The position numbers and the translations under genes are program-made. The notes beneath the pieces were generated by a model, which saw nothing but the letters and a program-made list of their open reading frames with translations, ran no database searches and was not told where the DNA came from. Source: Stieleria maiorica (GTDB lineage: Bacteria > Planctomycetota > Planctomycetia > Pirellulales > Pirellulaceae). From it: a stretch of DNA of 64,000 bases. Of this stretch, positions 45,663-59,229 are shown one piece after another (within the stretch, counting starts at the first letter, position 1; every line of letters starts with the position of its first letter). The DNA lies in the NCBI RefSeq assembly GCF_008035925.1, contig NZ_CP036264.1, positions 1,461,409 through 1,525,408 on the forward strand, written 5' to 3'.

Positions 45663-47003
45663 TCAAATCAGCCGCTTGGCCGCGTCGCACAGTGATTGGG
45701 CTTGGGATTCGGATTCCGCCTCGGCGATCATCCGCACGATCGGTTCGGTGTTGCTGCCGCGGACCAACAACCAGCGATCGGGCCAGGCCAGTCGCAGCCC
45801 GTCACTTTGGTCGACGCTGGCGTCGGAGAATTTTTCGCAAAGTTGTTGAAAAAGTTCTGGTAAGCGATCGGTCGATACCGCTGCTTTGTCTTTGCAGATG
45901 GCCAGTTTGGGGAGCGCATCGGCAAGCTCCGCCAACGATTTGCCGGTCGAGGCCATCAGGTCCAACACCTGGGCCATGGCGACGAAGCTGTCGCGGACGT
46001 AACCGACCCGCGGGTCGATCGGCCCACCGTTGCCTTCGCCGCCGTAGGTGGCTCCGTTGGCGATCATTTTGTCGGCCACGTTGGCTTCACCGACGGCGCT
46101 GCGATAGGCCGGGACGCCGGCTGCTTCGGCCAACCGTTCGCTCATCCCGCTGGTCGCCCCGTTGATGACAATCGGGCCGCGAGTCGCATCGTCGGTCAGG
46201 GCGCGTTGAACGCACAATGCCAACGTGTACTCTTCGCCGATGTAGCGACCCTCGCCATCAATCAACGCCAACCGGTCGGCGTCGGGGTCTTGGCAGAATC
46301 CGACGGCGCACCCGGATTTGGAAACCGTCTCGGCGACACCGGCCAAGTTTTCCGCGGTCGGTTCGGGGACGTGTTCGAATTGGCCGTCGGGGGTTGCACC
46401 GAGCGCGGTCACGTCGCAACCGAGTGCCGTCAGCAAACGCACGCCCAACAAGCCCCCGGCACCATGATTGCTGTCGATCAGGACCCGGTACTTTGCCGCC
46501 CGAATCGCATCGACAGCGACGGTCTTGAGGACGGCATCTAGGTGGGCTTGGTGCGGATCGGACTCGGTGCTCACGTCGCCGATTTCGTCGAAGGGGCACC
46601 AGGCGGCGGTTCCGGCCAAATAGGCGTCACGGATTTTAGCGCCGGTGTCTGCGTCGAGCACTCGGCCGTCGCCGCCGAACAGCTTGATCCCGTTGTAGGG
46701 CGGCGGGTTGTGGCTGGCGGAGATCTGGACGGCACCGGCGGCGCCGGTGTGTTTGACCAGCACACCGATCGTGGGTGTGGACGCCACGTCGGCGTCAATC
46801 ACGTTGCGACCGCAGGCCCGGAGCGCGGCGACGATCGCGTCACGCAGCATCGGGCCGCTGCTGCGTCCGTCGCGGCCGACGATGATCGTGCCCGCCGGCA
46901 GTTGTGCGGCGAATGCCGCCACGTAGCCGCCGGCGACGACGGGGGTCAACGTTTCGCCGACGATTCCGCGAAGTCCGCTGACACTGATGATTAACTTGCT
47001 CAT
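45663..47003 (-). CDS. Phosphoglucosamine mutase-like phosphohexomutase
   Basis: A 446-aa alpha-D-phosphohexomutase that swaps phosphate between C1 and C6 of a sugar. The active Ser97 lies in QISASHNPPPYNGIKLF, the Mg2+ loop is DPDADRLAL, the sugar-binding loop is GGEGNGGPI, and the phosphate-binding loop is RGSNTEPIVR. Length and the GEGNGGPI loop favour phosphoglucosamine mutase (GlmM-like, glucosamine-6-P to glucosamine-1-P), but phosphomannomutase activity is possible. It is divergent from a second, larger mutase with 183 nt between. Confidence 0.9.
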   Translation of the reverse strand: MSKLIISVSGLRGIVGETLTPVVAGGYVAAFAAQLPAGTIIVGRDGRSSGPMLRDAIVAALRACGRNVIDADVASTPTIGVLVKHTGAAGAVQISASHNPPPYNGIKLFGGDGRVLDADTGAKIRDAYLAGTAAWCPFDEIGDVSTESDPHQAHLDAVLKTVAVDAIRAAKYRVLIDSNHGAGGLLGVRLLTALGCDVTALGATPDGQFEHVPEPTAENLAGVAETVSKSGCAVGFCQDPDADRLALIDGEGRYIGEEYTLALCVQRALTDDATRGPIVINGATSGMSERLAEAAGVPAYRSAVGEANVADKMIANGATYGGEGNGGPIDPRVGYVRDSFVAMAQVLDLMASTGKSLAELADALPKLAICKDKAAVSTDRLPELFQQLCEKFSDASVDQSDGLRLAWPDRWLLVRGSNTEPIVRMIAEAESESQAQSLCDAAKRLI

Positions 47004-47186: not shown

Positions 47187-49001
47187 ATGAACGCTACCGA
47201 CGCCCTGGCCGCCGCGAAACAAGCGGTTTCCGACGGAAAACTGAGCGAAACGGCTGTTGAAAATATCCAGCGTTGGCTGACCGAAGATCGTTACGCGCAG
47301 TACCGCGATCAGGTCGCCACAGAGATTAGGCAGCAGAAGTGGCAAGCACTCGACGACGCGTTCTGGACCATCATCCCGTTCGGAACCGGCGGCCGCCGCG
47401 GTCGCATGCACCCGATCGGTTCCAATGCCATCAACGACCGCACGATCGGTGAAAGCGCCCAGGGGCTTGCCGACTATGTGGTCGACTACCACAAGGGGCA
47501 AAAGGATCTGTCGTGCGTGATCGCATACGACACGCGGCACCAATCGCGACATTTCGCCGAACTGTGTGCCGGAATCATGGTCGCGGCCGGGTTCAAGGTC
47601 TATTTCATCGACGACTATCGCGCCACACCCCAACTGTCGTTTGCCGTCAGGTACAAGAACTGTGATTGCGGCATCATGGTCACCGCCAGCCACAATCCGC
47701 CCAGCGACAACGCCGTCAAAGTCTATTGGTCCAGCGGCGCGCAAGTCCTGCCGCCGCACGACAAAGCCATCATCGATCGAGTGATGAGCTGCGAAGAGAT
47801 CCGCGTCACACCCTTCGCAGAGGCTCAAGCCGAAGGCAAGGTCGAGATCATTACCGCAGAAATCGACGAAGCTTTTGTGAAGGTTGCTTCCGAGCAAGCG
47901 TTCGAAGGTTCGCGTGACGTCCGTATTTTGTACACGCCGCTGCACGGGGTGGGCGCCGAAGCCGTGATGCCGTTGTTGGCCGCCGACGGTTTTTCGGACG
48001 TCGAAGTGTATGGTCCGCATGCCGAAAAGAGCGGTGATTTTCCCAATGTCCCGGGGCATGTTTCCAACCCCGAGAACAAAGCCGTTTTTGATGCTCCCGT
48101 CGAATACGCCCAAGCGGGCGGTTTCGACTTGGTCTTGGCCACCGACCCGGATTGTGACCGATTGGGCGTCGCCGCACCGTTGACGTTGGATCCGTCCGGC
48201 CCTTGGGGCACGTTCAACGGAAATCAAATCGGCGCGCTGTTGGCCGACTACATTTTGGGCAAACGCAAACAAGCGGGCACGCTGTCGGCCGACCACTACG
48301 TGATCAAGACCCTGGTGACGACCGAGCTGGTCCGCAGCCTGTGTGACAGCTATGGCGTGCGATGCGTCGGGGATCTGTTGGTCGGATTCAAGTACATCGC
48401 CCAGGCCATGGATGCCAACGGCCCGGACAAGTTTGCGTTCGGCACCGAAGAATCGCACGGCTACCTGGTCGGCCAGTACTGCCGCGACAAAGACGGCGCG
48501 GTCGCCTGCATGTTGCTCAGCGAATTGGCGGCCGATTTGAAACAACGCGGCGTGTCGATGCACGAACATCTGGCCACGCTCTACCGAACACACGGGCTGC
48601 ACCGCGAACAGCTGATCAATCTGTTCATGGAAGGCAGCGAGGGGATGGCCGCGATGCAGCGTTTGATGAAGGCGTTCCGTGAATCGCCGCCGGAGGCGAT
48701 GGCCGGCATCCCGGTGACGCGCGTCCGCGATTACCTGAACAGTGTCGCCACGGACACCGCGACCGGTGAATCGTCGCCGCTGGGTGATCCGGTCGGCAAT
48801 CTGATCATCATGGATCTGGCCGAAGCAGGGAATTACGTCGCCGCCCGGCCCAGCGGCACCGAGCCCAAAATCAAGCTCTACGTGTTCACCAAACTGAGCG
48901 CCGAGGAGTCCCAAGACCTGGATGCCGCCGCGGAAAAACTTGGCCAGCGACTCGAGGCACTCGAATCCGACATGCGAGCCTTCGCCAAAGCCAATAGCTG
49001 A
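47187..49001 (+). CDS. Phosphoglucomutase/phosphomannomutase (PgcA-like)
   Basis: A 604-aa phosphohexomutase of the longer PgcA/PGM2 type. The N-terminal part is WTIIPFGTGGRRGRMHPIGS, the catalytic Ser168 lies in GIMVTASHNPPSDN, the Mg2+ loop is ATDPDCDRLGV, the sugar loop is FGTEESHGYLVG, and the phosphate loop is RPSGTEPKIKLY. It likely interconverts glucose-1-phosphate and glucose-6-phosphate to feed UDP-glucose and glycogen. It is oriented away from the GlmM-like gene. All catalytic loops are intact. Confidence 0.92.
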   Translation: MNATDALAAAKQAVSDGKLSETAVENIQRWLTEDRYAQYRDQVATEIRQQKWQALDDAFWTIIPFGTGGRRGRMHPIGSNAINDRTIGESAQGLADYVVDYHKGQKDLSCVIAYDTRHQSRHFAELCAGIMVAAGFKVYFIDDYRATPQLSFAVRYKNCDCGIMVTASHNPPSDNAVKVYWSSGAQVLPPHDKAIIDRVMSCEEIRVTPFAEAQAEGKVEIITAEIDEAFVKVASEQAFEGSRDVRILYTPLHGVGAEAVMPLLAADGFSDVEVYGPHAEKSGDFPNVPGHVSNPENKAVFDAPVEYAQAGGFDLVLATDPDCDRLGVAAPLTLDPSGPWGTFNGNQIGALLADYILGKRKQAGTLSADHYVIKTLVTTELVRSLCDSYGVRCVGDLLVGFKYIAQAMDANGPDKFAFGTEESHGYLVGQYCRDKDGAVACMLLSELAADLKQRGVSMHEHLATLYRTHGLHREQLINLFMEGSEGMAAMQRLMKAFRESPPEAMAGIPVTRVRDYLNSVATDTATGESSPLGDPVGNLIIMDLAEAGNYVAARPSGTEPKIKLYVFTKLSAEESQDLDAAAEKLGQRLEALESDMRAFAKANS

Positions 49002-51429: not shown

Positions 51430-52214
51430 GTGACGGTGCAAGCGATCGAGGTGGGGAGATTGGGTGGGAAGCGAATTGTAGTGCAATCGATTGCCAAATT
51501 CATTTTCTTACCCCCCAAATATTCTTACCGCTTTCCCGCGCTACCCACGCGCATTTCATCACCAGACGCCTTGTCCGCAGCGCGAACCCCTTTGGACCGG
51601 GGGTGTCCGATCGGTAGCGATCCTTGCTACCGACAGTGTTGAAAAGGGGCTTTGACCGGCCCCCGACTTGTCTGATTCATGGGGATTTGTTTGTCGCTCG
51701 GTAGACTTTCGACGGCGAATCCCGCGGGGCCGTGTCATCACAGCGGCTACTCGTGTGGGAGCAGCCGGATACGGAATCTCGGATTTCATTAGACCACTCG
51801 TATGAAGTCCGTTTGGATACGATGCGCCGCATCGTCTCGGGGCTTCGCCCCAACTGTGAACCGATTCAGACAGGTTGATCATGCGTCGAATCCTGAAAAC
51901 AGAACGAATGCCACCGGCAAGATCAGGCGCATGCCGCTTACCGGGGGCCAGGAAGACGGGCGGTTGAGTCCATCGCTGAGAACGCAACGGGCGTTCCCGG
52001 CGAACATTGGACCATCGTTTTCTGGGGACAGGAATTCGATCGCGACGAGAACGCTGACTCGATGCAAACTATGCCGATGGCTTGTTGCTCGCTGTGGCGA
52101 AACGGCACATTCTTTCGCCTCAGCGGGCCAGCCCATCGGTCGCTTCTGATAAAAAATTGTCGTGTCGTGGACTTCTCCGCGTGCACGACCGAATTGCAGT
52201 TGTAGGAATCGTCC
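51430..52214. other. Long intergenic region (785 nt) with no confident gene
   Basis: It contains a palindrome TCGGTAGC/GCTACCGA (51611-51618 and 51626-51633). An open frame on the plus strand runs from about 51903 to a TAG at 52203-52205. Its later part has normal-looking residues (GEHWTIVFWGQEFDRDENAD), but the only ATGs are near its end (52062; 47 aa). It may be a gene remnant, a tiny gene or chance. The promoter for the large 52215 gene should lie here; AGGA about 8 nt before its ATG is its ribosome site. Confidence 0.5.
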
Positions 52215-55200
52215 ATGCGTGATCTCGATCTCTGGCTTGCCTTGGGCGATAGCGATTCGGTTGCCGACTTGGCAATTCAGATCGATGCGCTTGCCCATGC
52301 GCCGCTGCACCGCCGCACACCGTTTTTCGCTCGGCTTTTGCCACTGGCGCGTCACGCGGATCCGGGGGTGCGTCGGGCCACGCTGAAAACGTTTGCCGGT
52401 TGCGATGGGTTGCGGGTGCGGCGTGAATGCGTGGTGGCGTTGGACGATGAAGCACCCGAGGTCGTCTCGACGGCGCTTGACGTGATCGCGTCGGCCCCGC
52501 GACGGTCCACATGGGCGCATGCCCTCTTTCATCGACGCTCTGAAGTGCGTCGTGACGCGGTGGCGATTGCGATGGGCGGCGGTTCACAGGGCCGCCCCCA
52601 GGCCCACGACGCCGATCTGTCGTTGTTCTTGCTGGCCGATGTCGACAGCCAGGGCGTCGTTGTCGACCACTTGGACGAACTGCAACTGGACCATGTTCCG
52701 TTTCATTTGCTGATCGATTTGCATCGCACCGGTCATCTGGATGATGGAATCGCCCGGCGGTTGGTATTGAGGTCGTCGGTTGACGATCTGCTGATTTTCA
52801 TTCGCGAGGGGCTGTCCGCCGACAGCAGCAAGCCCGACGTCGGTTGGTTGATCGATCTGTTTTGGGAGGCGGGCGATCTGAACGACGTGGAATACACTTC
52901 GTCGCGTTTCCCGCGTGGTGTGTTTGCATCGTTGTGCGAATCGATCGCCGCCAAGCGTGGTTGGTGGTTGGACCAAGACTTTGTCCTGTTATGCCAAGAC
53001 ATCGCGAGACAACGCGGGCATTGGAATTTGGAGATCGCCCGGATTTGTGTGTTGGACATGGCACAGGAAGCGGCGTGGTTGTACGAGAAAATATTGCCCG
53101 CGGATGTTTTTCGAACCTCCATGGAAGTGCTTTACGAACGTGGGCTCGCCCGCGATGAAGTCAGCGGGACGATCGTCGACCAGCTTCTGCAGTTGCCGTT
53201 TTGCCGACGACCGAGCGGGCAACTCGACTTGTGGACACTCGGCGCGATCCTGCATTTGCGCCGCCGAGACGGATTCAAACGATTGCTCGGCATTTACAAA
53301 TCCTCTCAGATCGCCGCCGGATTTGACGAACATCCCGAGGAATCGGTGCGGTTGTTTTCGTATCCCGGGGCCACTCGCCAGCGCAGCGATCTGATTGAGG
53401 CGGTTTTCGCGCGGCGCCGAAAAGATCCCTTGGCGGTCGCAGTGATGATGTGCGCGTTGCCGGCCGACGGACTGGCTTTTGCCGCGCGTTTGACGGCGCA
53501 TGAGACGGTCAAGGCACTGCGCGCCCTAGCGGAACTGTGTGTGCGCCAGGGGTGGTCGGTTTCAGCCAACAAATCGGCAGCGATCTCCCATCAGCTCTCT
53601 CGGCGATTCTTCGTCGGGGACACCTTGCATCATGACGCCTTTGCCACCTTCCTGAATCAGTGGCTGCAAGGCGAGTGGTCATCGTTTGGCGATGTCCAGG
53701 ATCGTCTCCGGGACGAGATCGCAGTCGATTCTGACCATCGGGTTGTGCGTCACTGCGCAGACTTTTCGGTCGCCGTTGACGTGATGACCGACGTCGTGCG
53801 ACGGATGGACACCGCGGACATTGCCAAGTGGATTCGCGAAACGCTACCGCCGGCGACGATCGCAAGGTTTTTGTCGTTGATGCCTTGCTGCAGCGGTCTG
53901 TCGTACGCACTGGAGATCGCGTTAGCGCAGGAATTGGCGGGGCATGCGGACCCGGCAATTGCCCGCTGGGCCGGTGATCGTGTCGTGATCGCCGATCGGG
54001 GAACGAGTCATCATCAAACGCTCGCCGAAATCGATGAAACGAGCCGGATGACGCCGATATCGGATGCTTTGGCCCAAGAAATCCGTACCGCGGCCCCGCA
54101 TCGGTTGGAGTCGGTTGTGCGACCGTTGGGGACGGGGCGTCGTCGCGGGATCGCGGCGGCGTTTGCCGATCGTGCCGACCCGGTCAACCACGACGAAAGG
54201 GTTTGGGCGTGCGTCGCACTGCTCTGTTCCGGGGACGGAATCGATGACGTTGCGGCGGGCGTTGCACGCTATTCACTGGACCAAGACGGCATCATTAACG
54301 CGGCCGCCAATGAGCTGACATCGCTGGGGGATTTTGCCAATCTCGGAACTCTGGGCCTGGTCGTGATGTATCGCTGGGAGGCTGCCGCGTTCGCGTTCGC
54401 CCAGCGGTGCATGCGGAAGGACGATGAATGCATCGGCTGGATTCGTTTCGCCGACGAACTGGTTTCGAAGACGCTCGCCCATGACGTCGTTCAATGTCTC
54501 GCGCGCGTGCTGGCCTTGTTGATCGCGCGGGATTCGCCCCGTGCGACCGAACTGCTCACCGAATCTCATCTGGCGGCTTGGCTGGAACGGTTACCAACGA
54601 GCGGCGGAAAGCAAGCCGCCGGCGTGCTGATGCGGACGTTCAAGGCAGGATTGAACCCATCGGCAATGGCCGCACTGCGTGATCGAGCCGCCGAGATTCT
54701 GCCCAACGTGTCGGATGAACTTCAATTTGCACTTCGACCGTGGGTCGATGCGGCCGACCTTGGTTCGATGGCGATCACCGCCCGCGTTCGCAAGGAACCC
54801 AGCAGTCCCGATCTTGCGAGTGAGATCGCCGAATGTACAGACCTGCAGCGGCTATCCGATTGGCTTGAAGATCGAAACAGTGGGGGCGTCAGTGATGCCG
54901 CCGTGCGTCTGGTGGAACTCGGTCAGGCAGGGATCTGGAGCTTGGTTTCCACTTTGACCAAGCCGAATCCGGTGCGCTGCGTATCGATGATCGCGGAAAC
55001 CATTGCACTTTGGCCGACCGAATCGATCGAACTCCTGAGGGAGTTGATCGATGGAGATCGCCCGCTGCCCGATTCGGTCCGATTTCTCGTCGCATTGGAA
55101 GCGTTGGATGCGTTTGGTGCAGAAAACGCCGACGCTCCGGGTATCCCGATCAACGCGACGCTGGATGCTGTCGCCCAATGGTTACTGCGACCGTGTGATG

Positions 55201-57437
55201 TCTCGTGGGTCCATGTGCTGGACATGCAACGCTTGATTCAGTGGTTTTCGCCATCTGCCAAGGACACCTGCGCGGCAATGTGGGTGGATTCCCCGCATCC
55301 GAATGTCTACCGATTTGCCGTCGCCCACAACATTGCCCGTCTGAACATGATCGATGACGAAGCGACATCCGAGGTCCGTTCGGTTGAAGCGGCCCTGGTG
55401 CGTTTTTTGCAGCACGGGACCGATCGCGATTCCACCTCGCGTTTGTCGGCATCGGTGGCACTCGCACGGCGTGGGAATTGGATCGGGTTTCCGATCCTGT
55501 TGTCACATCGGCTTTCAAAGGAGTTTGGAAAGCCATACGACCCACTGGAATCCATGCCGGAAAAGTTCTGCCCCGACGAGCTTGTGGTCGAAGTGACTCA
55601 GTCGCTGCTGATGGCGGGACCCAAGGCGGTTGCGGAGACGACTATCGCGTCGCTGGTCGATTTCTATCGAAGCAGCGAAAACGTCGTTGCCGCGGGGCGT
55701 TTGGTCATGCGTGAAGCGATCAACGAGAACGTTCGTCAAACAGCGGCTCAATTGATGCGCAGCGACGTCCATCGCCAAGCCAAGCTGCGCCGGATCGCAA
55801 CCGTGTTTCAACGCGGCGTCCGGCTCGGACGCGAGCTGACCGGAAGATTATTCACAATCGAAATGATCGGCGGGTCCGATTTCGGTTACACCCGATTGAA
55901 CGCCGACCGTGTGTCTATCAATCCGATGCCGCTGCTTAACGGAACGGCCAATGCCGAAGACATTGTTGAAGGGTTGATTCTGCACGAACTCGGTCATCAC
56001 CTTTACCACCGAGGCGAGCAGCAGCAGGCGGTTTGGGAGCGAGCCGATTCGATGGGGATGGGCAAGCTGTTGAATCTGGTGGCCGACGAACACCTGGAAC
56101 GCAATCTCCGCGCGCTCGATCGGTCTTACGGCGACCAGTTGAAACGTTTGGGGGCCTATGCGTTCAATCGAAGCGCAAAGGAATTCGATGTGGACTATGT
56201 CTTGAACCTGCTCGGCCGGCACATCGCGGCGGTCTTTCAAATGCATCCGCCTGGTGTCGCCCGCAATCCCGCTTGTTTGCGCGTTCGCGGTGGAGCGTTG
56301 TTGCAGGAACTGGAACGATCGGGGAGCAGTTTTTCGCGGTTCTTTCGTGCGCTGCGTCTGGGGTTGGGGAATCGACACGATGATCCCAAAGTCGCCGAGG
56401 GGCTGGCACTGTTTGACAAGGGGTTTCGCAAGTTGCAGATGCCACAATTGTTGGAGATTTGCAAACGTCTGCGTGAAATCTTTGGCGATGAAGCCTGTAT
56501 GCAACGTTGCCTGTCGGTCGACGATTTGATTTCCGACCCCGATGGCGACGTGGTCGTCAAAGCTGATGGTCTGTCCAATGACGAACTGCAGTCGGAAATT
56601 CAACGCATACATCGAAAGCCGAGCGAGTCGTCGGAGTCTGGCGGCAGCGGGGGTGTCCGTGCGATCAACGTCGGTGAGGACGTGCAATTCGATTTGATCA
56701 CCCAGATTCGTCGTTTGCCGTTTCATCCGGCGACGTATCAACCGTACGCCCGACAAGTTGCCGCCACTTCCAGACGGTTTCGCGGTTTCCTGCGAGATCT
56801 CGGGCTCAGTAATGTGCGATGTCCGCGACGGATCCGGGGGCGTCAGGTCGACGGGGCGAGTCTAAAGCAGCTCGTGATCAAGGGTGATCCGCGGGTGTTG
56901 GTGGCACGCGAGATGCGTTATCACAACGATCTGTTCTTGTCGGTTGTCGTCGACTGCAGCGGGTCGATGGAATTCGGCGACAACATGTCAAAGGCAAAGT
57001 TGTTTGCCGCCATGATGGCCGAAGCCTGTCGTGAACTCGAGGGCGTCGATTTGCGTCTGTTCGGATTCACCGACGCGGAGATCTATGACGCCGGCGATGC
57101 ACGTCGGCCAGCGGTCGCGGAACTTCGGCCCGGCGGTGGGAACAACGATGCCGCCGCTTTGTGGCACGCGGCGGAGGTGGCATCAAAGTCCAAACGCAGT
57201 GCCAAAGTGGTGGTGATGATCAGCGACGGCTTGCCCACCGAATGCAGCACCGAAGCACTCAAGGCACTGGTCGCTCGTCTGTCGCGTCGTCGGGATCTGG
57301 TTTGCGCCCAAGTCGCCGTGCAATCGTTGGAAGAAGTTTGTTTTTCACATTACATCGAGTTGACCGACGCGGACACAATGGTCTCCGTCCAACGCTTCGG
57401 CGCGATCGTCGCCAGACTGGTCAAAAGCATTCTGTAA
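52215..57437 (+). CDS. Giant HEAT-like / zinc-metallopeptidase-like / VWA-domain protein
   Basis: A 1740-aa protein without signal peptide or membrane helix. Residues 1-~1190 are helical, HEAT-like repeats (LARHADPGVRRATLKTFAGC; FHRRSEVRRDAVAIAMGG). About 1190-1500 hold a metallopeptidase-like part with LILHELGHHLYHRG (H1257, E1258, H1261), followed by LVADEHLERNLRAL, where a third metal ligand could sit. The C-terminal ~170 residues are a VWA domain: VVVDCSGSM gives the D-x-S-x-S MIDAS (D1580, S1582, S1584), then GGNNDAAALWHA and VMISDGLPTE, resembling the CobT chelatase VWA. A CobS/MoxR-like ATPase gene starts 10 nt downstream. Such AAA+/VWA pairs remodel or insert metals into partner proteins. 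The true function is unknown. Confidence 0.85.
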   Translation: MRDLDLWLALGDSDSVADLAIQIDALAHAPLHRRTPFFARLLPLARHADPGVRRATLKTFAGCDGLRVRRECVVALDDEAPEVVSTALDVIASAPRRSTWAHALFHRRSEVRRDAVAIAMGGGSQGRPQAHDADLSLFLLADVDSQGVVVDHLDELQLDHVPFHLLIDLHRTGHLDDGIARRLVLRSSVDDLLIFIREGLSADSSKPDVGWLIDLFWEAGDLNDVEYTSSRFPRGVFASLCESIAAKRGWWLDQDFVLLCQDIARQRGHWNLEIARICVLDMAQEAAWLYEKILPADVFRTSMEVLYERGLARDEVSGTIVDQLLQLPFCRRPSGQLDLWTLGAILHLRRRDGFKRLLGIYKSSQIAAGFDEHPEESVRLFSYPGATRQRSDLIEAVFARRRKDPLAVAVMMCALPADGLAFAARLTAHETVKALRALAELCVRQGWSVSANKSAAISHQLSRRFFVGDTLHHDAFATFLNQWLQGEWSSFGDVQDRLRDEIAVDSDHRVVRHCADFSVAVDVMTDVVRRMDTADIAKWIRETLPPATIARFLSLMPCCSGLSYALEIALAQELAGHADPAIARWAGDRVVIADRGTSHHQTLAEIDETSRMTPISDALAQEIRTAAPHRLESVVRPLGTGRRRGIAAAFADRADPVNHDERVWACVALLCSGDGIDDVAAGVARYSLDQDGIINAAANELTSLGDFANLGTLGLVVMYRWEAAAFAFAQRCMRKDDECIGWIRFADELVSKTLAHDVVQCLARVLALLIARDSPRATELLTESHLAAWLERLPTSGGKQAAGVLMRTFKAGLNPSAMAALRDRAAEILPNVSDELQFALRPWVDAADLGSMAITARVRKEPSSPDLASEIAECTDLQRLSDWLEDRNSGGVSDAAVRLVELGQAGIWSLVSTLTKPNPVRCVSMIAETIALWPTESIELLRELIDGDRPLPDSVRFLVALEALDAFGAENADAPGIPINATLDAVAQWLLRPCDVSWVHVLDMQRLIQWFSPSAKDTCAAMWVDSPHPNVYRFAVAHNIARLNMIDDEATSEVRSVEAALVRFLQHGTDRDSTSRLSASVALARRGNWIGFPILLSHRLSKEFGKPYDPLESMPEKFCPDELVVEVTQSLLMAGPKAVAETTIASLVDFYRSSENVVAAGRLVMREAINENVRQTAAQLMRSDVHRQAKLRRIATVFQRGVRLGRELTGRLFTIEMIGGSDFGYTRLNADRVSINPMPLLNGTANAEDIVEGLILHELGHHLYHRGEQQQAVWERADSMGMGKLLNLVADEHLERNLRALDRSYGDQLKRLGAYAFNRSAKEFDVDYVLNLLGRHIAAVFQMHPPGVARNPACLRVRGGALLQELERSGSSFSRFFRALRLGLGNRHDDPKVAEGLALFDKGFRKLQMPQLLEICKRLREIFGDEACMQRCLSVDDLISDPDGDVVVKADGLSNDELQSEIQRIHRKPSESSESGGSGGVRAINVGEDVQFDLITQIRRLPFHPATYQPYARQVAATSRRFRGFLRDLGLSNVRCPRRIRGRQVDGASLKQLVIKGDPRVLVAREMRYHNDLFLSVVVDCSGSMEFGDNMSKAKLFAAMMAEACRELEGVDLRLFGFTDAEIYDAGDARRPAVAELRPGGGNNDAAALWHAAEVASKSKRSAKVVVMISDGLPTECSTEALKALVARLSRRRDLVCAQVAVQSLEEVCFSHYIELTDADTMVSVQRFGAIVARLVKSIL

Positions 57438-57447
57438 ACGTGGATTC

Positions 57448-58563
57448 GTGAATATGGAAAAATGGAACATCGATGACCTGTCAGTCGGCATGCTGGTCGA
57501 AGCCACGTTTTGGGCTAATCCGGTCCAAACGAGCGACTTTCGCTTTCGTGCAACGCATCTCGACGGGCGCCGTGCCCCGAAGGTGGTGCTTTGCGACGAC
57601 ATGCGGATCGTCCCCGGAACGCCGTGTCGTGTCAGAATCAAAGCGATCAAGAAACCGGCACGCGAGGATCGCGGTTCGATCGAAGTCGAGTTCGATCGTT
57701 TGATGGAGTTCCGGCTCGACGGCGTGTACCTGGATCCGGTGGTCTCCAAAAAACTTCAAGTGTTGTTGGAGAGCGGGCTGAACATCTTGCTGGACGGGCC
57801 CCAGGGATGTGGAAAGACGGTCACGGCGCGTTCGATCGCCCAGACTTTGGGGATGGAGTTTGTGTTCTTCAACTGTGGCGCGGTCATCGATGCCAGCGAC
57901 TTTTTGGCGACGATTCAAGTTCGCGCGTCGGAATCCGGATCACCCGTGACCGACTTTACCAAAACCGAGGTGTTGGAGGCACTGGAGGATGCCCTCGAAT
58001 CGCCGGAAAAGCGTTACCTGATCTTTCTGGACGAGTTGAATCGCTGTCCCGAAAGCGCCCGCAACGCGTTGATGCCCGCACTCGATTCATCCCGTCGACT
58101 CTTTCACCCGATCGAAAACCGGTTCATCCGAATCGGTGACAACGTTCAATTCGTCGCGGCGGTCAATCGTGGCGGCGAGTTTTCGGCAACCTTTGGGATC
58201 GACGCCGCCCAATTGGATCGATTCGCGCCGGTCCAAATGGATTACCTGCCCGCGGACGAGGAGGTGAAATTGTTGAAGTCGCGGCACCCCGAATTGAGTG
58301 AAGCGATCTTGAAACGGATCGTCTCGCTCGCGGCAAAAGTCCGTCAGGCGGCCGAGATTTCGGGCGGATTGTCGGTTCGTGCGACCGACGAAGTTTGCGT
58401 TTATCTGAAGCATCCCCTGTTTGCCGAGCAGCCGCACAAAGACCTGCCCGAGATATTGAAGTCGTCTTTCTGCGGCCGCTTCGCCGGACGTTGGGATGAC
58501 GTCACGACCGATGCCGGTGCCGTGTGGGCATTGATCCAGCGGGGGGCGACGAAAGAGGCTTGA
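57448..58563 (+). CDS. CobS/MoxR-like AAA+ ATPase with an extra N-terminal domain
   Basis: A 371-aa protein starting at GTG 57448 (or ATG 57454, two codons later). Residues 1-~95 form a beta-rich extra domain (VGMLVEATFWANPVQTSDFR ... RVRIKAIKKPARED) not usual in MoxR proteins. The AAA+ core follows: Walker A LDGPQGCGKTVTA, Walker B YLIFLDELNRCPESARNA, sensor-1-like FVAAVNRGGEFSATFGIDAA, and QLDRFAPVQMDYLP. The spacing and the A-x-L-D-R-F end match CobS and MoxR ATPases, which work with VWA partners. The partner is the giant VWA protein directly upstream (10-nt gap), so the two are almost surely one operon. Confidence 0.9.
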   Translation: MNMEKWNIDDLSVGMLVEATFWANPVQTSDFRFRATHLDGRRAPKVVLCDDMRIVPGTPCRVRIKAIKKPAREDRGSIEVEFDRLMEFRLDGVYLDPVVSKKLQVLLESGLNILLDGPQGCGKTVTARSIAQTLGMEFVFFNCGAVIDASDFLATIQVRASESGSPVTDFTKTEVLEALEDALESPEKRYLIFLDELNRCPESARNALMPALDSSRRLFHPIENRFIRIGDNVQFVAAVNRGGEFSATFGIDAAQLDRFAPVQMDYLPADEEVKLLKSRHPELSEAILKRIVSLAAKVRQAAEISGGLSVRATDEVCVYLKHPLFAEQPHKDLPEILKSSFCGRFAGRWDDVTTDAGAVWALIQRGATKEA

Positions 58564-58626
58564 TGGGCGGCGGGCAATGGTTCCCGATGGGACGGCGGGA
58601 CCACTTTTTTCTTCGTGAATGATCCA

Positions 58627-59229
58627 ATGACCGAATCGATTTCAAAAGTCGCCGAGCGCGCGGGGCAATTCTTCATGGGGCAATCACCGATTCATCAGGC
58701 GATGCTGCGTCTGACCAAAGCTCTCGGCGAAATGAAAATCCCCTTCGCGATCGCCGGCGCGATGGCTGCCAATGCCCATGGTCACCGGCGAACGACAGCC
58801 GATATCAATATCCTGCTCCGCGATGAGGATCTGCAGAAATTCAAGCAGCAGTACATCGGTCGCGGTTGGGTCAACAAATTCGAGGGTTCCAAGAACTTTC
58901 GCGATGCGGTGCGCGCGGTCGACATCGACGCGTTGATCGTCGGCGGTTACCCCGGCGACGGGTTACCCAAGCCGGTCGCCTTCCCCGAACCGGAACGCGT
59001 CTGGGAGGTCAAGGAAGACGGGATCCCGTTTGTTTCGTTGAAGACCTTGCTGGAGCTGAAACTGGCCAGCGGCATGACGGCTCCGCATCGGATGCAAGAC
59101 ATGGCTGACGTGATGAACCTGATTCGTGCCAACGACCTGCCCCAAGACTACGCCGAGACCCTGGAGCCCTACGTCGCCGAAAAGTTCGGCGAGTTGTGGC
59201 AGGCGGCTCAGATCAGCGACGAGCACTAA
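58627..59229 (+). CDS. Nucleotidyltransferase-fold protein (AbiEii/MNT-like)
   Basis: A 200-aa protein from ATG 58627 (GTG 58615 is an alternative). Residues ~30-80 give IPFAIAGAMAANAHGHRR and TTADINILL, resembling the G-G/S-x8-12-T-x-D-x-D start of nucleotidyltransferases, with Asn replacing the second metal Asp. A possible third acid is VDIDALIVG. The rest (FVSLKTLLELKLASG, HRMQDMADVMNLI) matches AbiEii-like toxins and related proteins. With the missing Asp, activity is doubtful. It begins 63 nt after the ATPase gene, on the same strand, so it may be the third gene of the module. The convergent sulfatase gene ends 2 nt further on. Confidence 0.75.
   Translation: MTESISKVAERAGQFFMGQSPIHQAMLRLTKALGEMKIPFAIAGAMAANAHGHRRTTADINILLRDEDLQKFKQQYIGRGWVNKFEGSKNFRDAVRAVDIDALIVGGYPGDGLPKPVAFPEPERVWEVKEDGIPFVSLKTLLELKLASGMTAPHRMQDMADVMNLIRANDLPQDYAETLEPYVAEKFGELWQAAQISDEH

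Follow-up and report, generated by a model that had tools for sequence, protein, structure and literature searches.

What does a bacterium do with a 1740-residue protein that combines a helical-repeat arm, a zinc-peptidase signature and a von Willebrand factor A (VWA) domain, encoded just upstream of an AAA+ ATPase? The question is raised by a locus of Stieleria maiorica, whose genome (G000) is a single 9.89-Mb contig and which we analyzed in a window of 64,000 nucleotides (NZ_CP036264.1, positions 1,461,409 to 1,525,408; coordinates below are window positions). Three co-directional open reading frames (ORFs) on the plus strand span 52215–59229 and encode the giant protein (P0001), the ATPase (P0002) and a nucleotidyltransferase (NTase)-like protein (P0003). 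The original prediction, made from the DNA letters, treated them as a three-gene module. Its coordinates for all three ORFs and its 10-nt gap between the giant and ATPase genes were confirmed, and its 63-nt gap before the NTase-like gene holds if P0003 starts at the ATG at 58627. We find that the first two genes form a strongly linked pair that relatives keep or lose together, and that the third lies outside the module. Giant and ATPase probably act as one ATP-driven remodelling machine, predicted to cut a client protein at a chosen site, a reading to which we assign a probability of roughly 0.5.

Architecture of the giant protein

A search of 5.8 billion proteins yielded 160 relatives of P0001 at E ≤ 1e-3, the best 120 of which (query included) were examined; most of these are full length. 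Alignment A1 comprises 57 of the 120, and alignments A2 and A4 comprise 41 rows each. The family, distributed across large-genome Planctomycetota and Myxococcota, has one conserved architecture, in which HEAT repeats are followed by a zinc-peptidase signature and then by a C-terminal VWA domain. The closest named relatives are from Stieleria neptunia (75% identity across the full giant) and S. varia (51–52%). Three motifs, HExGH, DE[H/Q/R]LER and DCS[G/S]SM, occur in all 120 sequences (the query and 119 listed homologues), HExGHH occurs in 117, and the spacing between H1257 and the Asp of DE[H/Q/R]LER is identical throughout. HELGHH and DCSGS begin at H1257 and D1580, where they had been placed originally, and the conservation of HExGH and DCS[G/S]SM across 120/120 exceeds chance.

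The conserved part of the giant is its C-terminal 550 residues, with mean identities to P0001 of 52.7% (residues 1190–1440) and 54.8% (1501–1740), and its variable part is the arm, which evolves fast (20–33% mean identity to P0001 over 56 homologues). Between G000 and genome G199, identity is 68% for the arm, 89% for the peptidase domain, 90% for the VWA domain and 95% for the ATPase.

Within the peptidase-like domain, H1257, E1258, H1261, H1265, N1287, D1291, E1292 and E1295 are invariant in the 57 aligned sequences, all of which carry the gluzincin signature of HExxH with a downstream Glu. The third zinc ligand would be E1292 or E1295, both candidates from the alignment. This domain was folded separately, VWA matches having filled the structure-search list for the entire C-terminal model. 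Its top structural rows, though a weak match, are the minigluzincins abylysin, jannalysin and selecase, which have a small HExxH zincin fold; these are stand-alone archaeal proteins of ~105 aa, whereas the giant's domain sits within a long protein. Among the families in the VIA list, the domain could be assigned to no single peptidase family.

The VWA domain scores 26.9 bits against Pfam CoxE (PF05762; cut-off 26.4). Its metal-ion-dependent adhesion site (MIDAS) residues D1580, S1582, S1584 and D1671 are present in 57/57 sequences and T1619 in 52/57. The folds closest to the C-terminal model are NorD and the MDN1/Rea1 MIDAS domain, the latter being the nearest VWA in VIA. Residues 409–658 of the model align in VIA with NorD 354–638, including the finger that precedes the NorD VWA domain; this segment, like the predicted finger tip, has a low predicted local distance difference test score. 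By profile, the only significant match among solved chains is the CobT VWA domain (2.4e-6, 1.9e-5); the CobT_C family is hit in 34 of 41 members.

The giant had been described originally as containing helical, HEAT-like repeats. Pfam gives P0001 itself no HEAT hit at E ≤ 1, but positions 41–123 of the family profile match designed HEAT proteins (best E 1.6e-25), and among the 119 listed homologues 49 have a HEAT or HEAT_2 label in the precomputed annotation. In five homologues picked for these labels and rescanned, the Pfam matches are confined to the first ~170 residues. HEAT repeats are thus supported by profile near the N-terminus, and their extension past about residue 123 rests on the predicted helical secondary structure of residues 1080–1210 and on a sister family.

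This sister family consists of shorter proteins (~880–1410 aa) with canonical HEAT Pfam labels and the same peptidase and VWA parts; HExGH is found in 37/37 and DxSGSM in 31/37, one of the 37 (P0281) resembling a fragment of the long type. At two sister loci (L155, L156) an ATPase 52–54% identical to P0002 is encoded upstream of the giant, so the three-part architecture and its ATPase come in two forms, with the gene order reversed between them.

The partner ATPase

P0002 matches Pfam AAA_5 with 48.3 bits (cut-off 22). Its Walker A residues G117, P118, Q119, G120, G122 and K123, Walker B residues D195 and E196, sensor N240, and R258, S309 and R311 are invariant in 56 sequences, and the ATPase is 62–76% identical across loci. 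A part of ~97 residues with conserved positions precedes the AAA+ core. The closest solved chain is midasin (2.9e-24 with the single sequence, 1.2e-21 with the profile), ahead of NorQ (profile, 3.5e-7) and CobS (1.7e-6). None of 29 ATPase rows contains the NorQ/CbbQ H2i motif GRxL[L/I]xxxxT, and neither of the motifs of VMAP-type MoxR proteins (WxhapG, PsWRxa) occurs in any of the 29. Relatives of P0002 in its own genome number only seven and are distant (27–31% identity). By sequence, the two proteins have the attributes of a MoxR-type pair: complete AAA+ catalytic residues and a VWA partner with a MIDAS. The evidence supports the anticipated coupling of a CobS/MoxR/midasin-type ATPase to a single protein that carries HEAT, peptidase-like and C-terminal VWA parts.

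Table 1. Features of the locus, in window coordinates
Feature	Residues	Position	Strand	Remarks
P0001, giant adaptor protein		52215..57437	+	1740 aa; 160 homologues at E ≤ 1e-3
N-terminal arm	1-1180	52215..55754	+	HEAT supported ~41-123; remainder predicted helical
Zincin-like metallopeptidase domain	1190-1440	55782..56534	+	
HELGHH	1257-1262	55983..56000	+	HExGH in 120/120
NLVADEHLERNLR	1287-1299	56073..56111	+	spacing fixed in 120/120
C-terminal region	1495-1740	56697..57434	+	predicted pore finger (~1505-1569) and VWA; PF05762 above cut-off
MIDAS DCSGS	1580-1584 (with T1619, D1671)	56952..56966	+	
P0002, AAA+ ATPase		57448..58563	+	371 aa from GTG; alternative ATG 57454
Walker A GPQGCGKT	117-124	57796..57819	+	
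P0003, NTase-like gene		58615..59229	+	204 aa from GTG; alternative ATG 58627; neighbour outside module

Linkage and joint loss of the two genes

Coupling was surveyed at 46 loci from named genomes. The ATPase gene lies at most 400 nt downstream of the giant gene in 28, including one locus (L058) where the two are fused into a protein of 2144 aa. The separation is 1.4–4.7 kb at four loci; at L040 the ATPase is ~14 kb away on the opposite strand; four loci stop at a contig edge and eight have no ATPase in the flank. A genome search found the ATPase in 13 of 14 genomes, the exception being a short Chloroflexi fragment (L066). One locus has a giant-ATPase-giant order with a short gap (L054:1877-13311), where a single ATPase may serve two adaptors. 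The genes intervening at L023 and L038 encode a cyclase-type protein and two proteins with weak Glucodextran_B matches; they form no pattern and were rejected as parts of the module.

Among 60 related genomes, the same five contain each of the two proteins, the giant at E ≤ 1e-20 and its partner at E ≤ 1e-40; in one of the five (G229) they are encoded ~3 Mb apart. Of 199 genomes from the phylum, three have the ATPase, each together with a giant; a giant-like VWA fragment occurs in G037 without an ATPase, and 13 further genomes give weak, mainly VWA-level matches.

Four genomes (G211, G203, G210 and G200) have syntenic flanks without the module (empty sites L147, L148, L149 and L150). All four sites retain the final 34–96 nt of the ATPase gene fused to the upstream flank, with deletion junctions at 51529|58489 (G211), 51430|58530 (G203 and G200) and 51723|58468 (G210). 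In a tree built from three flanking proteins, {G000, G211} is split from {G199, G203, G200, G210} with full support, the inner nodes of the second clade having 50–68%. Full and empty sites occur in both clades, and the pair has therefore been lost at least twice. The junctions are nested, and the scars of one clade could be explained by one old deletion followed by erosion; two losses are still required, since each clade of the tree contains a full and an empty site.

The NTase-like neighbour and the gene neighbourhood

P0003 had been proposed as a third member with a nucleotidyltransferase fold. The fold assignment is weak (12 bits against NTP_transf_5, cut-off 31.2), and membership is rejected: the gene is found at none of the 46 other module loci. 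Sixteen of the 60 related genomes carry it, only three of them together with the module: G000, G199 and G201 (a distant 29% copy). It is retained at all four empty sites; being kept where the module was deleted, it lies outside it. P0003 reads TADIN at the position usually occupied by a DxD-type motif in such NTases, and may be inactive.

In the window, the pair is surrounded by genes for a TPR/AhpC protein, two phosphomannomutase-like proteins, a sulfatase, a CBS protein and a histidine kinase. The phosphomannomutase-like genes are an adjoining, divergent pair (47187–49001 and 45663–47003).

Neighbours at other loci were scanned with 137 of 140 proteins drawn at random from 174, three L066 rows being omitted. 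Among the best 25 of 94 Pfam families, none occurs in more than three of the 137. The largest non-module cluster, 12 proteins at 10 of 48 loci, of which 7 were checked, comprises Ser/Thr protein kinases whose position varies from locus to locus. The next cluster, present at 8 loci, runs antisense to the AAA+ gene and was discarded as a shadow frame of crude ORF calling. The possibility, raised originally, that homologues always accompany chelatase or dehydrogenase-activation genes is not borne out at the scanned loci: no such operon is a fixed neighbour among the best 25 of 94 families, though rarer chelatase neighbours are possible. The module looks self-contained.

Comparison with known systems

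Midasin (MDN1/Rea1), whose MIDAS domain docks on its AAA+ ring, provides both the nearest solved AAA+ by sequence and the nearest VWA fold in VIA. It is a single chain with six AAA+ units and has the ribosome as its client, whereas here ring and MIDAS reside on two proteins and a peptidase and a HEAT arm are added. Of the solved VWA domains, the closest by sequence profile is that of CobT, from the CobS/CobT cobaltochelatase, but the CobT N-terminal family PF06213 is absent from this genome, and no cobalamin genes appear among the listed results of the neighbour scans.

DUF2201_N (PF13203)/VWA proteins have an HExxH...N-x-x-x-D layout ahead of the VWA domain (L160) and an adjacent AAA+ gene but, unlike the giant, no HEAT arm. 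Despite the similar motif layout, membership in DUF2201_N was rejected: comparison of the peptidase profiles gave a probability of 0.2%, and PF13203 matches neither P0001 (E ≤ 1), nor any A2 member (E ≤ 0.1), nor the giant in the search of its own genome. One DUF2201 subfamily makes up most of alignment A5. G000 also contains a separate AAA+/DUF2201-VWA pair (L158, G000:C1:1689569-1690075), with an apparently degenerate peptidase motif.

NorQ/NorD and CbbQ/CbbO share with the pair the AAA+ hexamer type, a VWA adaptor with a MIDAS, a finger-like segment before the VWA domain (in the giant a predicted one) and an N-terminal client part. In NorQD, the finger occupies the pore and the adaptor is twisted against the client (PMC13036017, PMC9976466). 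The descriptions consulted report no peptidase or HEAT part, and P0002 differs in lacking H2i and having the 97-residue N-terminal part.

The original prediction knew of no described system with the three parts in this order. In the literature searched, from which subscription journals were mostly absent, we likewise found no paper that pairs a HEAT-peptidase-VWA protein with an AAA+ ATPase, and the family is not described there. A MoxR/metallopeptidase-vWA pair has, however, been described in group 2.2 jumbo phages, where MoxR is encoded beside a metallopeptidase N-terminal to a vWA domain and peptidolytic processing with chaperone action was proposed (PMC7824862). The likeness, of description and not of sequence, lies in an AAA+ gene adjoining a metallopeptidase-vWA gene; the phage pair is viral and linked to virion assembly, and the passage describing it mentions no HEAT arm.

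The VMAP ternary system has the order VMAP-MoxR-vWA and a third core gene, whereas here the VWA protein precedes the AAA+ protein and 48 loci show no fixed third gene.

Proposed mechanism and alternatives

Analogy with NorQD and midasin suggests a hexameric ATPase on which one giant would dock through its VWA domain, the pre-VWA segment reaching into the pore as a finger. The client would be held at two points, by the fast-evolving arm and by the MIDAS metal, and ATP hydrolysis would twist the VWA domain against the arm, exposing a site that the gluzincin-like domain, located between the two, would clip. A finger occupying the pore would prevent threading of the client in the manner of FtsH or ClpXP, which would make limited cleavage likelier than processive degradation. 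More tentatively, the pair is possibly a two-protein bacterial counterpart of midasin with its own protease, in which an AAA+ ring twists a MIDAS/HEAT adaptor and the zinc peptidase clips one bond.

The machine could instead be a metal or cofactor insertase like CobST or NorQD, its HExxH site binding or handing over a metal or being structural, with no peptide cleavage. The closest AAA+/VWA pairs of known function take part in metal insertion (PMC13036017), and the matches to CobT point the same way. We nevertheless consider this unlikely: the combination of HExxH and an invariant Glu helix is characteristic of peptidases and is kept in all 57 rows, and the neighbourhood has no fixed family among the best 25 of 94, iron-containing alcohol dehydrogenase appearing in 3 of 137 proteins.

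A conflict or defence system, whose arm senses an intruder or its protein and whose response is cleavage or remodelling, would fit the patchy occurrence (5 of 60 relatives), the repeated joint loss and the fast-evolving arm (68% identity versus 89–95% for peptidase, VWA and AAA+). MoxR-vWA conflict systems are also common in multicellular planctomycetes and myxobacteria (PMC7159879). The immune reading, which the original prediction had listed, nonetheless finds no support in PADLOC, where the giant and the NTase-like protein are unmatched and the ATPase gives weak, partial P-loop matches (best 2.8e-6); among the best 25 of 51 PADLOC families, all kinase-type, none matches more than three of the 137 neighbours. 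The domain order is constant, without swapped effector domains, and viral contigs match at the VWA level only (3 loci, 28–29%), so that a viral origin was rejected as well. We regard a defence role as rather improbable.

Least probable, and by our estimate very unlikely, is an assembly chaperone whose HEAT arm and MIDAS help to assemble a large complex, in the way midasin assists ribosome formation, with a peptidase-like domain that is inert scaffold: the AAA+ profile is much closer to midasin than to NorQ or CobS and the VWA domain is closest in VIA to the Rea1 MIDAS, but an inert domain would hardly retain all zinc-ligand candidates in 57/57 sequences and HExGH throughout the sister family.

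Implications

If the proposed remodelling protease is real, it would represent a form of AAA+ proteolysis unlike that of FtsH, Lon and Clp, with the protease in the adaptor, the motor on a separate protein and the pore occupied by the adaptor. It would be an ATP-driven protease acting by grip and twist instead of threading, and would offer a compact bacterial model for how a MIDAS grips its client, a question that is difficult to approach in midasin.
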